Source: Haloplanus salinarum
Lineage (GTDB): Archaea > Halobacteriota > Halobacteria > Halobacteriales > Haloferacaceae
Assembly (NCBI RefSeq): GCF_024498175.1
Contig: NZ_CP101823.1
Coordinates: 496,001-560,000 of the forward strand
Reading direction: 5' to 3'
Length of the DNA: 64,000 nt
Shown: positions 32,937 to 61,727 of the stretch, one piece after another
Layout: each line of letters opens with the position of its first letter
How positions within the stretch are numbered: the first letter of the stretch is position 1
Notes under the pieces: model-generated
Seen by the model: only the letters and a program-made list of their open reading frames with translations
Databases searched by the model: none
What the model was told of the DNA's origin: nothing
Translations under genes and position numbers: made by a program

Positions 32937-33371
32937 CTACGCATCGACGACGGTCGGGCGGACCCAGATGACGAAGTCCCCGTCGCGCTTGATCACGCCC
33001 CTGACCGCCTCGTCCTGATCACCGGGTGCGGATTCGATGTCGTTTCGGGCGACTTCGACCACTTGGTCGACTTCGTCGACGATCCAGCCGACCGACTTCC
33101 CGTCGGCCGTCCGTTCGGGGTCGAAGACGATGATCCGCTTGCGGGCCCCGTCGTCGTCGATGCCGAACACGACCTTCGGGTCGACGATGGTCGTCGTGTT
33201 TCCCCGGAGGTCCATCACGCCCTCCACGTGGCTCGCCGAATTCGGGATAACCGTGAGATCGTTCACGTCCACGATCTCGGCGACGTGGCCGATGTCGACG
33301 CAGTAGGTCTCGCTCCCGAGTTCGAACTCTAGAAGCTGTACCGTTCGCGACCGGGTCGCCGTCTCGCTCAT
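32937..33371 (-). CDS. cheW: CheW chemotaxis coupling protein (cheW1)
   Basis: 144 residues, one CheW domain: VQLLEFELGSETYCVDIGHVAEIV at the start, the conserved VIPNSASHVEGVMDLRGNTTTIVDPK region and KSVGWIVDEVDQVVEV. It links transducers (Htr/MCP) to CheA. It is divergent from cheB across a 248-bp gap with a bidirectional motility element. A 19-codon leader ORF (33368-33427) ends in the ATGA overlap with its start. No transducer gene lies in the window. Confidence 0.95.
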   Translation of the reverse strand: MSETATRSRTVQLLEFELGSETYCVDIGHVAEIVDVNDLTVIPNSASHVEGVMDLRGNTTTIVDPKVVFGIDDDGARKRIIVFDPERTADGKSVGWIVDEVDQVVEVARNDIESAPGDQDEAVRGVIKRDGDFVIWVRPTVVDA

Positions 33372-33470: not shown

Positions 33471-33486
33471 TTATCCTACGTGATAA
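33471..33486. promoter_or_regulatory. Motility element B, bidirectional cheW1/cheB promoter
   Basis: The best palindrome of the set: TTATCCTACGTGATAA on the plus strand. Toward cheW1, a 13-bp spacer then TTTAAC (33452-33457); toward cheB, a 13-bp spacer then TTTATC (33500-33505). One site therefore serves two core promoters with the same geometry on both sides. Confidence 0.75.
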
Positions 33487-47224: not shown

Positions 47225-47240
47225 TTATCAATATTGATAC
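47225..47240 (-). promoter_or_regulatory. Motility element C (arl operon)
   Basis: Toward arlCE: GTATCAATATTGATAA, a 13-bp spacer, then GTTAAA (47206-47211). It lies in the 118-bp gap between the cheD stop and the arlCE start and should control arlCE-F-G-H-I-J-cheF2. Confidence 0.75.
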
Positions 47241-49014: not shown

Positions 49015-49374
49015 TCAGGCCACGACGTCGTCGATGGCTTCGAGCACGTTCGGTTTCTGGAACGGTTTCGTGATGTAGCCGTCCGCACCGGCCTTGACGG
49101 CGTTTTTCATCTTCTCCTCCTGGCCGACGCTGGTACACATGATCACGTTCGCGTCCGGATCGCTGCCGGTGATCTCGCTCGTCGCCTCGATTCCGTCACG
49201 GATCGGCATCACGATGTCCATCATGACTAAGTCCGGATCGTGTTCACGGTAGAGTTCGACCGCCTCGACCCCGTTTTCCGCCTCATCGACGATCTCGAAG
49301 TTCTCCTCGAGGATCTCACGCAGGAGATTACGCATGAAATCCGAGTCGTCGACGATGAGTACTTTCGGTGGCAT
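49015..49374 (-). CDS. cheY: CheY chemotaxis response regulator
   Basis: 119 residues, a stand-alone receiver: DDSDFM acidic pair at 9-10, phospho-acceptor Asp in LVMMDIVMPIRDG, Thr in MCTSVGQ and Lys in YITKPFQKP. It carries the signal from CheA to the motor through CheF. The ATG is 32 bp after the first base of its TATA hexamer, so it is leaderless and is the first gene of the cheY-cheC-cheD operon. Confidence 0.96.
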   Translation of the reverse strand: MPPKVLIVDDSDFMRNLLREILEENFEIVDEAENGVEAVELYREHDPDLVMMDIVMPIRDGIEATSEITGSDPDANVIMCTSVGQEEKMKNAVKAGADGYITKPFQKPNVLEAIDDVVA

Positions 49375-49419: not shown

Positions 49420-49435
49420 TTCTCAGCGCTGATAC
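49420..49435 (-). promoter_or_regulatory. Motility element D (cheY operon)
   Basis: Toward cheY: GTATCAGCGCTGAGAA, a 13-bp spacer, then TTTATT (49401-49406). It lies between cheY and the gene at 49446. Confidence 0.75.
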
Positions 49436-50884: not shown

Positions 50885-50900
50885 ATATCACGGCTGAAAT
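50885..50900 (-). promoter_or_regulatory. Motility element E (archaellin 1)
   Basis: Toward the gene: ATTTCAGCCGTGATAT, a 13-bp spacer (TTTGGTCTATAGG), then TTTAAC (50866-50871). Identical to element F. Confidence 0.8.
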
Positions 50901-51732: not shown

Positions 51733-51748
51733 ATATCACGGCTGAAAT
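51733..51748 (-). promoter_or_regulatory. Motility element F (archaellin 2)
   Basis: Same 16-mer, spacer and TTTAAC hexamer as element E, including flanks. TATA first base to ATG is 67 bp in both. Confidence 0.8.
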
Positions 51749-52605: not shown

Positions 52606-52621
52606 ATATCAGCGGTGAAAA
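52606..52621 (-). promoter_or_regulatory. Motility element G (archaellin 3)
   Basis: Toward the gene: TTTTCACCGCTGATAT, a 13-bp spacer (CTGGGAACGTACC), then TTTATC (52587-52592). Spacer sequence is unlike E/F, so the fixed length is not simple duplication. Confidence 0.78.
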
Positions 52622-52673: not shown

Positions 52674-52955
52674 TCAGTCGTAGATGATGAGGCTGTACAC
52701 GACGAAGATGAACCCGAGGGAGGCGAGGCCGTTGTTGACCAAGAGTAGGGAGCGGACGCCGTTGAAGTCGTTGATGAACGCGCTGATCGCCGTCGCGATC
52801 GCCGCGGCGGCGATCAGGCTGAAGCCGAGTGACACGTGGATCATGGCGCGGCGGGTCGTCTGGAGGTAGGCCTTGATGGCCATCCCGACCATCGTCAGCC
52901 CGGAGACCACCAACACCGCCGTGGCGGCGAAGTAGAGGGATTCGACGACTAACAT
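52674..52955 (-). CDS. Small three-helix membrane protein
   Basis: 93 residues with three hydrophobic helices (ESLYFAATAVLVVSGLTMVG, SLGFSLIAAAAIATAISAF, NGLASLGFIFVVYSLIIYD) and short charged loops (YLQTTRRAM). Similar small membrane proteins accompany winged-helix regulators in haloarchaea, and here one is divergently encoded at 53098. It is under element H, so it belongs to the motility set; a sensory or regulatory partner role is a guess. The ATG is 35 bp after the first TATA base. Confidence 0.75.
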   Translation of the reverse strand: MLVVESLYFAATAVLVVSGLTMVGMAIKAYLQTTRRAMIHVSLGFSLIAAAAIATAISAFINDFNGVRSLLLVNNGLASLGFIFVVYSLIIYD

Positions 52956-53003: not shown

Positions 53004-53019
53004 TTCTCAGGTATGATAG
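53004..53019 (-). promoter_or_regulatory. Motility element H (small membrane protein)
   Basis: Toward the gene: CTATCATACCTGAGAA, a 13-bp spacer (TATCACGGCCAGA), then TTTATA (52985-52990). Confidence 0.7.
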
Positions 53020-53078
53020 ACACTCCCGAGAGCGACCGTCCGCCACGCGTATGACAGTACGATTTATTGTTCAGGGCC

Positions 53079-53094
53079 GTATCTAAACTGATAA
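53079..53094 (+). promoter_or_regulatory. Motility element I over the start region of the wHTH gene
   Basis: GTATCTAAACTGATAA lies between the TATA-like TTTATT (53063-53068) and the ATG at 53098, not upstream of TATA as in all other sites. A protein bound here would block transcription, which fits autorepression. Confidence 0.6.
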
Positions 53095-53097
53095 CGA

Positions 53098-53433
53098 ATG
53101 GACGGAACCGAGATGTTGCGGGTTCTGGGCAACGAGTACAACCCCCAAATACTGAGTTTCGCACACGAACCACGCTCGGCCCAAGAGCTCAGCGACGAAC
53201 TCGACGTACCGATCGCCACCTGCTACCGCCGTATCGAGGAACTCACCGACGCGAACCTCCTCGAACACCACGACCGGGTGCTGTCGGACGAGCGACGACG
53301 AGTCAACGTCTACCGGCGGAACATCGAGGAGGTCGTCGTGAACTTCTCGGAGGGGGAGGTCTCGGTCGACGTCGAGGAGCGACGACAGGTCACGAACCGA
53401 CTCGACGAGGCCTGGCGGACGCTCTCGGAGTGA
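53098..53433 (+). CDS. Winged-helix transcription regulator, candidate motility regulator
   Basis: 111 residues. The ArsR-like winged helix covers residues 5-75: MLRVLGNEYNPQILSFA, AQELSDELDVPIATCYRRIEELTDANLLEHH (recognition helix around ATCYRRIEEL) and the wing DRVLSDERRRVNVYRR. A charged tail (EERRQVTNRLDEAWRTL) may dimerise. The ATG is 35 bp after the TATA-like box, so it is leaderless. Its core promoter carries the motility element at the repressing position. It lies inside the island, divergent from the membrane gene, and its stop abuts the stop of the KaiC-like gene at 53434. Confidence 0.85.
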   Translation: MDGTEMLRVLGNEYNPQILSFAHEPRSAQELSDELDVPIATCYRRIEELTDANLLEHHDRVLSDERRRVNVYRRNIEEVVVNFSEGEVSVDVEERRQVTNRLDEAWRTLSE

Positions 53434-54168
53434 TCACTCGCCCGGGAACGAATCGTTGCCCCCGCCCATCATCGAGAACCCCGCCGCCCGTTCGTGGACG
53501 GTGATGCCACCCTCGTCGATGTCCATCGGGAAGATATCCGTCTCGATGTCCTGTTTTCGCATCTTGGCGACCCAGATATACCGGTTGACCCCCGACTCCG
53601 TCGGGGTCTGGATCAGGTAGATGTTCCCGTCGGTTAGGAAGTTCTCCAGCCCGATGTCCTGTTCCGGGAACACGGCGGACTGCTCGGCGATGAGCAGCGA
53701 GGTCAACCCGTTGGCTTTCAGGATATCCGAGAACTTCAGCAGGTACGTCCGCTTCTCCTGTTCGTCCTCGAAGAACAGTTCGAACATCGTCAGCGAGTCG
53801 AGGACGAGCCGTTCGTACTCCGTCTCCTCGAACGCCGCCAACAACCGGTCGAGCGTCGAGTTGAAGTCGTTGTGTCGCAACAGCTCCTGTTTGTCGTAGA
53901 TGAGGATCTGATCGTCCTCCACGAGCTCCCGCCAGTCCGCGAAGCCGATGGATTCGGCCGCCTGGGCGATGTCCTCGGCGTTCTCCTCGAACGAGAGGTA
54001 GATCCCCTTCTCGTCGAACTTGGTCACGCCGTTGTAGATGTACTGCAACCCGAGGATGCTCTTCCCGGTCCCCGGGTTCCCGCTGATCAGTACCGTCGCG
54101 TTGTCGACGATGCCGCCGCTCAGTATCGAGTCCAACCCCTCGATTCCCGTTCGCGTCAGGTCAGTCAT
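53434..54168 (-). CDS. KaiC-like RecA-superfamily ATPase
   Basis: 244 residues from ATG 54168. A single KaiC/RadA-like domain: GIEGLDSILSGGIVDNATVLISGNPGTGKS (Walker A GNPGTGKS), KGIYLSFEEN and Walker B YERLVLDSLTMFEL. Such proteins sit with haloarchaeal che/arl genes and resemble ArlH. The longer open frame to 55056 reads through the opposite-strand KaiC-like gene and is not coding. Its promoter has a TATA box about 30 bp upstream but no motility element. Confidence 0.85.
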   Translation of the reverse strand: MTDLTRTGIEGLDSILSGGIVDNATVLISGNPGTGKSILGLQYIYNGVTKFDEKGIYLSFEENAEDIAQAAESIGFADWRELVEDDQILIYDKQELLRHNDFNSTLDRLLAAFEETEYERLVLDSLTMFELFFEDEQEKRTYLLKFSDILKANGLTSLLIAEQSAVFPEQDIGLENFLTDGNIYLIQTPTESGVNRYIWVAKMRKQDIETDIFPMDIDEGGITVHERAAGFSMMGGGNDSFPGE

Positions 54169-55559: not shown

Positions 55560-56207
55560 GGCGTCGGAGCGCATGAGTTCGCCCGGCTCCGTCCAGATGA
55601 CGAACTCACCGTCCTCGTCGCGTTTGACCACGCCGTTGATCCACGGTTCGTCGACCGGCGATTCCTTGACCTCCGCCAGCGAGACGGTCGAGACGCGCCG
55701 GACGCCGTCGACCGCCCACCCGACGCTCCACTCGTCGTCCATCTGCGCCGAGTCGAAGACGACGATCAGGTCGCCGTCGTCCTCTTCCTCCGCGGCCAGC
55801 GTCTCCTTGGGATCGATGACCGTCGTGATGTCGCCACGCAGGTCGATCACCCCCTCCACGAACGGCGGTGCGTTCGGGATCCGTGTGACCGTCCCCCGCT
55901 CGACGATCTGTTCGATGAATGAGATGTCCAGGCAGTACCGCTCGTCGCCGAGGACGAACTCCAGGACCGAGATGGTCTCCTCGTCGGCCGTCCCGCCCTC
56001 GTCCCGGCCGTCGTCGGTTTCGACGTCGTCGGGACCGTCGCCGAACGATGGTACCGACTCGACGCCGGTGCCCCCGTCGTCGTCCGAGGGCCCGGCCACG
56101 TCGAGTTCGCTCAGGGAGGTTTCGATCCGGTCGTCGAGTTCCGCCTCGTCGGCCCCGTCCGCCGCCTCGGCGACTTCGGCCGCCGAGGGGCCGTTCTCTT
56201 CGCTCAT
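55557..56207 (-). CDS. cheW: CheW coupling protein with acidic N-terminal extension (cheW2)
   Basis: 216 residues from ATG 56207. Residues 1-95 are acidic and disordered. A CheW domain follows: VLEFVLGDERYCLDISFIEQIVERGTVTRIPNAPPFVEGVIDLRGDITTVIDPK and WSVGWAVDGVRRVSTVSL. It probably couples a subset of transducers to CheA. The ATG overlaps the stop of a 24-codon leader ORF (ATGA), which decides the start over the ATG at 56213. Promoter: element K. Confidence 0.92.
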   Translation of the reverse strand: MSEENGPSAAEVAEAADGADEAELDDRIETSLSELDVAGPSDDDGGTGVESVPSFGDGPDDVETDDGRDEGGTADEETISVLEFVLGDERYCLDISFIEQIVERGTVTRIPNAPPFVEGVIDLRGDITTVIDPKETLAAEEEDDGDLIVVFDSAQMDDEWSVGWAVDGVRRVSTVSLAEVKESPVDEPWINGVVKRDEDGEFVIWTEPGELMRSDA

Positions 56208-56278
56208 TCCCATCCCCCGTCTCGCCGGCCGTTCTCGCGTGCGCGCTCCGAGCGCGTCGTTGTCGATTCCCGCGTCAT
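56204..56278 (-). other. Candidate leader ORF coupled to cheW2
   Basis: 24 codons from ATG 56278 (MTRESTTTRSERARENG at its start), 39 bp after the first TATA base, to a TGA overlapping the cheW2 ATG. Arg/Thr-rich and not protein-like for a halophile. Confidence 0.33.
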
Positions 56279-56330
56279 GTGTTCGTTGCACCGTCGTTCA
56301 CGCCACCCCGTAATAAGTTCCGTCGTCGGG

Positions 56331-56346
56331 TTCTCAGGACTGATAC
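56331..56346 (-). promoter_or_regulatory. Motility element K (cheW2)
   Basis: Toward cheW2: GTATCAGTCCTGAGAA, a 13-bp spacer (CCCGACGACGGAA), then CTTATT (56312-56317). Confidence 0.72.
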
Positions 56347-60725: not shown

Positions 60726-60758
60726 AGTTATATAACTTGTGAATGAACGTTCAGTCAC
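60726..60758. promoter_or_regulatory. Bidirectional TATA palindrome and TetR-type operator
   Basis: AGTTATATAACT (60726-60737) is a perfect palindrome and can serve as TATA box in both directions. Next to it GTGAATGAACGTTCAGTCAC (60739-60758) is a 20-bp palindrome with one mismatched pair. It lies between the TATA and the GTG start of the TetR gene and upstream of TATA for the divergent operon, suiting autorepression and control of the exporter. Confidence 0.8.
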
Positions 60759-60759
60759 C

Positions 60760-61389
60760 GTGGCGTTCGACTCCCCCTTCGGCTCCCCCGCGGACACGCG
60801 TACTTCGATCATGCGCGCCACCTACGACGCGTTGATCGAACACGGGTACGAGAACCTGACCATCCAGCGGATCGGGGACGAGTTCCCGAAGAGCAAGTCG
60901 CTCATCTACCGGCATTACGACGGCAAGGACGACGTCCTGGTCGCGTTGCTGGAGTTCCTGCTCGATCACCTCAAATCACAGATGCCACAGCCGACGACGG
61001 CGGACGCACACGACTGTCTCCGGAACGTGCTCGATTTCGTGCTCGCACCCGACCTCGACGCGGAGCGAGCCGAGCTCACGAACGTGATGGTGGAACTCCG
61101 GGGACAGTCGCCGCACAACCGGGTGTTCCGGGAGTACTTCTCGGCCAACGACCGCACCTTCCGACGCGGCCTCGCGGACATCGTGGAACGCGGTATCGAG
61201 GAGGGGGTCTATCGCTCGGTCGATCCGGAACCCGTCGCCGAGTTCGTCCTGACGACGATGAGCGGTGCGACGGTCCGCCGGGCGACGACGGAGGACGTCG
61301 CCGACGTCGCGGCCGTACGTCGGGAACTGGATGCGTATCTCGAAGCGCGGCTACTGCGGGCGGAGGAGAGCGGACTCAGTCGACGATGA
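60760..61389 (+). CDS. TetR/AcrR family transcription regulator
   Basis: 209 residues from GTG 60760. N-terminal TetR helix-turn-helix: TSIMRATYDALIEHGYENLTIQRIGDEFPKSKSLIYRHYDGKDDVL. The C-terminal ligand and dimer domain is helical. An in-frame GTG at 60739 exists, but it lies too near the TATA box (60726-60737) and inside the operator; 60760 is placed for a leaderless start. It likely represses itself and the RND/COG1361 operon until a ligand binds. It overlaps the HalOD1 gene by 14 bp at its 3' end. Confidence 0.88.
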   Translation: MAFDSPFGSPADTRTSIMRATYDALIEHGYENLTIQRIGDEFPKSKSLIYRHYDGKDDVLVALLEFLLDHLKSQMPQPTTADAHDCLRNVLDFVLAPDLDAERAELTNVMVELRGQSPHNRVFREYFSANDRTFRRGLADIVERGIEEGVYRSVDPEPVAEFVLTTMSGATVRRATTEDVADVAAVRRELDAYLEARLLRAEESGLSRR

Positions 61390-61669
61390 CTCGCCCGGTG
61401 CCGTCGACGTGGACCGTGTGATCGTCGTACTCGAATGTGAGACTCCGGTTGGCTCGCTCCGCCGGTGTCCCGGCGAAAAAGGCCTCTAGGGCGTCGGGGT
61501 CGACGTACTCCGCGAGAGGGTCGAGTTCGGTTGCCGAGCAATCCTCGACGTCGCTAAGAGCGGCCTGCACGGTGTGGCTCACCGGTTCGCGTCGATCCCA
61601 GTCGACCTCCGACCGGTGAAGGGCCGAATCCGACCGCATCCGTGCACTTTCGTCGCTCGTCGCTGACAT
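61376..61669 (-). CDS. HalOD1 output-domain protein
   Basis: 97 residues. The HalOD1 domain occupies the centre and end: VSHTVQAALSDVEDCSATELDPLAEYVDPDALEAFF and LTFEYDDHTVHVDGTGRVIV. HalOD1 is a small haloarchaeal signalling output domain, here stand-alone. The ATG is 29 bp after the first base of its TATA hexamer. Its promoter carries a full motility element (L), tying it to the island 5 kb away. Role unknown. Confidence 0.85.
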   Translation of the reverse strand: MSATSDESARMRSDSALHRSEVDWDRREPVSHTVQAALSDVEDCSATELDPLAEYVDPDALEAFFAGTPAERANRSLTFEYDDHTVHVDGTGRVIVD

Positions 61670-61711: not shown

Positions 61712-61727
61712 TTATCAACCGTGATAC
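61712..61727 (-). promoter_or_regulatory. Motility element L (HalOD1 gene)
   Basis: Toward the gene: GTATCACGGTTGATAA, a 13-bp spacer (TCTCGCCAGTAGC), then GTTAAA (61693-61698). One of the best matches to the consensus and outside the che/arl cluster. Confidence 0.75.

Follow-up and report, generated by a model that had tools for sequence, protein, structure and literature searches.

Why would a regulator gene carry the recognition element of its own product on the opposite side of the TATA box from every other promoter around it? The question arises in a 64,000-nucleotide stretch of DNA (the window, as we call the whole of it), in which a palindromic element recurs at arl and che genes and occurs once more between the TATA-like box and the ATG of a small winged-helix gene. 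The original prediction, made from the letters alone, had taken this gene as the likely regulator and the copy ahead of it as a device of negative feedback.

The winged-helix gene and its regulator family

The gene (53098..53433, + strand) begins with an ATG at 53098 and has 111 codons, encoding a single-domain winged-helix DNA-binding protein of about 13 kDa. Judged by homology, it is the orthologue of CsmR (HVO_1209), the regulator recognising the element; we make this assignment because sequence, synteny (the archaellins and a cirA-like KaiC gene) and fold agree. Across its 111 residues the protein is 60% identical to the orthologue of Haloferax sulfurifontis, and it matches Pfam HTH_20 with 39.4 bits at a cut-off of 27. 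An AlphaFold2 model based on 44 orthologues (mean pLDDT 86) predicts a four-helix winged-helix core with an extra beta hairpin and a C-terminal helix; its top Foldseek match in the PDB is the heat-shock regulator Phr of Pyrococcus furiosus (2p4w, E 1.8e-5), with CzrA and SmtB also among the matches, and the same Phr 2p4w fold match has been published for HVO_1209 (PMC13286277). Archaellin genes lie to the left of csmR, and to the right is a KaiC-like gene (53437..54168, − strand; Pfam KaiC, 178.5 bits), likely the orthologue of cirA, which shares 69% identity with the KaiC gene that follows arlA1-arlA2 in Haloferax; the Haloferax csmR orthologue is itself located directly upstream of arlA1-arlA2. 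In the window csmR and the cirA-like gene converge, their ends being a few bases apart (53433-53437), and in Haloferax two archaellins sit between csmR and the KaiC-like gene.

A metal-sensing site of the metalloregulator type was not found in the protein of the window, which scores 13.8 bits against the NCBIfam model (cut-off 55) and has Cys42 as its sole cysteine. Pfam likewise gave no support for Lrp/AsnC features, the HTH_AsnC-type model reaching 13.3 bits (cut-off 27) and the AsnC ligand domain yielding no match; the authors of the CsmR study placed HVO_1209 near Lrp/AsnC by structure modelling (PMC13286277). The CsmR family comprises 80 named haloarchaeal loci, and the genome of the window contains nine matches to the protein, several of them paralogues, only about 35% identical.

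CsmR was described in June 2026 as a regulator of swimming genes in Haloferax volcanii, where TATCA(N4)TGATA was recovered from 50 of the 65 CsmR peaks in ChIP-seq and binding takes place at arl and che promoters, upstream of BRE/TATA (PMC13286277). That the gene is the regulator is therefore essentially published for another genus, and the earlier sequence-only reading agrees with the published work on both the gene and the element, its choice being borne out by the binding of TATCA(N4)TGATA by the Haloferax orthologue (PMC13286277). The accompanying statement that no other DNA-binding gene lies between cheW1 (32937-33371) and cheW2 (55560-56291) agrees with a Pfam scan of island genes in this interval other than arlH/I/F/G and the archaellins, which gave no other DNA-binding domain above cut-off.

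Spacing of the element at target promoters

Allowing up to one mismatch to TATCA(N4)TGATA, the window contains ten sites where shuffled sequences have 0.07 on average, and with up to two mismatches 16 against 2.4 expected; genome-wide, 37 matches stand against 10 for a reversed control pattern; the consensus derives from Haloferax, another genus than that of the window, and the sites are called by motif match. The copy between cheW1 and cheB (33472..33485) has a TATA box 14 bp away on both sides. On the − strand, a perfect match at 47226..47239, belonging to the arl transcription unit, is followed 14 bp downstream by GTTAAAG, the copy of a cheY-like gene (49015-49374) at 49421..49434 by TTTATT, and the copies of archaellin genes at 50886..50899, 51734..51747 and 52607..52620 by TTTAA, TTTAA and TTTAT, respectively, all at the same distance. 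The same strand carries the element TATCATACCTGAGA of the divergent DUF7521 gene (53005..53018), with TTTATA 14 bp downstream, the element of cheW2 (56332..56345), with the box cTTATTA 14-15 bp downstream, and a perfect copy at 61713..61726, with GTTAAAT 14 bp downstream, ahead of a small ORF (61376-61669, − strand). The cheW1/cheB copy has the form of a symmetric, shared divergent promoter. The copy at 61713-61726 lies outside the arl and che genes, and the small unannotated ORF which it precedes adjoins a TetR gene (60739-61389).

Eight of the nine copies not belonging to csmR thus have a TTTAW or GTTAA box exactly 14 bp past one end, the ninth being that at 56332 with its cTTATTA, and all nine are upstream of TATA, as originally claimed; only the csmR copy lies downstream. 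This spacing extends far beyond the window. When the window was combined with roughly 90 related loci (L001-L011 and L046-L125; Haloferax, Halogeometricum, Halobellus, Haloarcula and others), 170 of 497 site-and-direction combinations had a TTTAW or GTTAA box starting precisely 14 bp beyond the element, and no other gap accounted for more than two; as each site was scored in both directions, of which normally one faces a promoter, this represents a large share. Two controls accompanied the count, one leaving out the window and one using scrambled motifs. Such exactness to the base pair hints at a contact between the bound regulator and the initiation complex more than at occlusion.

How this geometry relates to the sign of regulation is less straightforward, as the discoverers of CsmR left activation, repression or both as alternatives (PMC13286277). 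Deletion of csmR renders H. volcanii non-motile and overexpression increases motility, while arl and che transcripts go up in the deletion strain and the directly bound, motif-bearing targets rise most (PMC13286277). The latter result would fit a CsmR that represses at all of its sites, the one at its own gene being simply one more and the 14-bp spacing another way of repressing. A protein bound 14 bp ahead of TATA would, however, leave TBP and TFB free, the precise spacing points to contact with the initiation complex instead of occlusion, and both motility phenotypes go the other way, so that we regard repression throughout as unlikely. The original prediction had assumed that a factor activating from upstream of TATA would repress from the position at its own gene: the repressive position is retained here as a probable one, but activation from upstream is weakened by targets that rise on deletion. 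It had likewise expected arl and che transcripts to respond to the deletion, and in H. volcanii they do, though with a sign opposite to the expected one.

The element ahead of csmR

The element at csmR itself was found just as originally described: a TATA-like box, TTTATT (53063..53068, + strand), conserved in the genus, is followed by the 16-mer GTATCTAAACTGATAA at 53079-53094 and then by the ATG. Within the 16-mer, the self site proper, TATCTAAACTGATA (53080..53093), has one mismatch to TATCA(N4)TGATA and is separated by about 11 bp from the TATA box before it and by 4 bp from the ATG after it; from the TATA-ATG distance of about 30 nt we infer a leaderless start. In all 11 same-genus genomes having csmR, the first base of the site is at -18 relative to the ATG and its half-sites TATCT and TGATA are invariant, position 5 of the palindrome being T instead of A in every copy, and across the genus the TATA box starts 16-17 nt upstream of the element. 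The mean column identity within the genus amounts to 96% over the 14 columns of the element, compared to 66% in the spacer between TATA and element.

Taking all lineages together, a site at -23..-16 with up to two mismatches is present in 36 of 99 distinct csmR leaders but in only 11 of 1538 other ATG starts from the same loci, and with up to one mismatch in 15 of 99 against 2 of 1538, counts which are descriptive, since related genomes are not independent. One-mismatch leader sites are also present in Halegenticoccus, Halomicrococcus and two further genera. The claim of a distinct position downstream of TATA can thereby be extended to the whole genus and to other genera. Haloarcula and its relatives have TATCA(N4)CGATA at -49/-50 of csmR, about 2 bp from TATA, which by its place in the sequence is also an occluding position, and they keep the right half-site TTGATAAC ahead of the csmR ATG. 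In many Haloarculaceae, only this right half is well conserved; the left half reads TTCA, and the spacing is one base longer.

That only TTGATAAC is well kept there could indicate that TTGATAACG ahead of the ATG is a core-promoter feature (an initiator or -10 element) or a generic motif of leaderless starts. Yet counts of TGATAAC near an ATG come to only 5 + 2 for the two strands genome-wide, close to the 1 + 2 of the control, and four other genomes have comparably few, the control starts with a site make up 0.7%, and the left half-site, too, is invariant in the genus of the window, all of which makes a mere promoter motif highly improbable. The off-consensus position 5 in every same-genus copy, taken together with nine related sequences in the genome, might instead point to a CsmR-like paralogue as the main binder of the self site. 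Against this, the core of the site is the same as in the arl elements, Halomicrococcus, Halegenticoccus and others have just one mismatch to the consensus, and the paralogues are merely about 35% identical; we consider a paralogue a rather improbable occupant. Recognition by CsmR itself is thus the reading followed below. The self sites of csmR, as far as motif matches tell, break the 14-bp rule, and their geometry is conserved in the genus and in several others; the strongest points of the analysis are the exact spacing at the targets and the much higher frequency of the site in csmR leaders than at control starts.

The self site is absent in Haloferax (12 species inspected, H. volcanii not among them), Halogeometricum and Halobellus. 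Among 22 loci (19 distinct leaders) of the clade formed by these genera and Salinigranum, only Salinigranum has a weak match close to the start, at -20. At the Haloferax loci L048-L057, L060 and L061, the csmR leaders are free of the element and share a block, ACCAACACATTGACA, which replaces a clear TATA box. As the Haloferax clade is devoid of the self site, the published H. volcanii work was probably blind to the loop predicted here. The csmR transcript stays at a stable level in H. volcanii (PMC13286277), and the text of that paper makes no mention of autoregulation or feedback of csmR; the self site appears undescribed so far.

Taken together, CsmR, presumably as a dimer, would bind the palindrome TATCA(N4)TGATA. 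Where the site precedes TATA by 14 bp, as in the promoters of arl, che and DUF7521 genes, it would present the protein on a fixed face beside BRE/TFB, while at the csmR promoter the site covers the start region, and CsmR bound there would block RNA polymerase; an occupied self site would then hold the csmR level down. We put the probability of this reading, in which the 14-bp-spaced sites serve the targets and the site over the start serves negative autoregulation, at roughly 0.68. Self-repression by occlusion is inferred from the steric position of the site and its conservation in the sequences. It does not need an activator role of CsmR elsewhere, which matters because H. volcanii targets rise on deletion. 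Two archaeal precedents are of interest here: for TrmB homologues, a site upstream of TATA activates and one downstream inhibits polymerase recruitment (PMC10817205), and the leaderless LrpA1 of Halobacterium salinarum, which recognises an inverted repeat located in the lrpA1 promoter, was inferred to be autorepressed (PMC2894021). A positive action of the self site, or a roadblock tuned by growth phase in place of homeostatic autorepression, would accord with a sign that the discoverers of CsmR state to be open, but the stretch between TATA and start is a repressive position in characterised archaeal regulators, which leaves either variant with little probability. The sites at 53005 and 53080 might also act together, but genomes of the genus differ in how far apart the two lie, which makes looping unlikely.

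Partner gene, occurrence and known systems

The gene divergent from csmR (52674..52955, − strand) encodes, as anticipated, a small membrane-type protein, a DUF7521 member (PF24365, 31.9 bits, cut-off 27), with the element at 53005-53018 as its own. The recurrence of such a pairing, also anticipated, is seen in the genome of the window, where all four DUF7521 genes adjoin a CsmR-like winged-helix gene (loci L146-L149). Where it neighbours csmR, DUF7521 has the divergent orientation in the genus of the window and in a small number of others, and in the Haloarcula relatives it follows csmR in the same direction; in the Haloferax clade, no DUF7521 gene was found beside csmR. This gene neighbourhood suggests that DUF7521 is a functional partner of CsmR-like regulators. 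More tentatively, and with considerable doubt on our side, both may form a recurrent haloarchaeal module in which DUF7521 senses or sequesters the regulator; in the genus of the window, CsmR would close a feedback loop within one intergenic region, driving its partner from the 14-bp-spaced site and repressing itself from the neighbouring off-rule one, the position of the site setting the sign. If this were true, the sign would be a property of site position, not of the protein, and could explain the published CsmR paradox.

Across 47 good genomes, 34 have both csmR and archaellin, seven a csmR-like gene without archaellin, three neither, and three have an archaellin but no intact csmR, the archaellin of one of these being no more than a broken copy. 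This co-occurrence is suggestive, not clean, and the main argument does without it; single genomes contain too few exact elements for a statistical distinction between them. Single cases illustrate the range: one genome of the same genus (G004) lacks csmR, an ArlCE-size match and any exact element, and its archaellin remnant is interrupted by stops; another (G008, locus L128) keeps csmR with an intact self site but yielded no archaellin; and in a third genome (G048), csmR is broken into two fragments. A low-GC relative (G016, locus L126) has a CsmR-like protein, no archaellin found and 14 exact elements against 2 for the control; these possibly belong to a regulon other than motility.

What is added here to the published CsmR is the exact 14-bp rule together with the conserved, abnormally placed self site of csmR. 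One protein thereby has two geometries, and these offer a test of its sign. As the relatives of the laboratory model lack the predicted feedback loop that is common to much of the class, control of csmR may differ elsewhere.

CsmR of Haloferax shares with the window the family, the motif, the neighbourhood of archaellins and a KaiC-like gene, and the site upstream of TATA at arl and che genes. The self site at -18, however, belongs to the genus of the window and is absent from the 12 Haloferax species inspected, and csmR is divergent from DUF7521 here, whereas its Haloferax neighbours are hvo_1208 and arlA1. EarA of Methanococcus and Pyrococcus is, like CsmR, a winged-helix regulator of the archaellum whose sites precede BRE/TATA by a fixed distance, but its recognition motif differs. 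Homology between the two was dropped, as EarA was reported to have no sequence or structural similarity to CsmR, a negative published for HVO_1209 (PMC13286277). Small winged-helix or HTH regulators binding their own promoter, as predicted for CsmR, include LrpA1 of Halobacterium salinarum, LrpA of P. furiosus, and Ss-Lrp and Lrs14 of S. solfataricus; by motif match, csmR has in common with such autorepressors a conserved site of its own over or beside TATA and start. They are of the Lrp type, another family than CsmR, and differ from it in effector and targets. Phr of P. furiosus, the nearest fold to CsmR, binds its own promoter, too, but unlike CsmR controls heat-shock genes. The glycolytic regulators TrmB, reported without autoregulation in Haloarcula (PMC10817205), and TrmBL1 differ from CsmR in family, motif and ligand, but the direction of their regulation is set by the position of the motif relative to TATA, as may also hold for CsmR.
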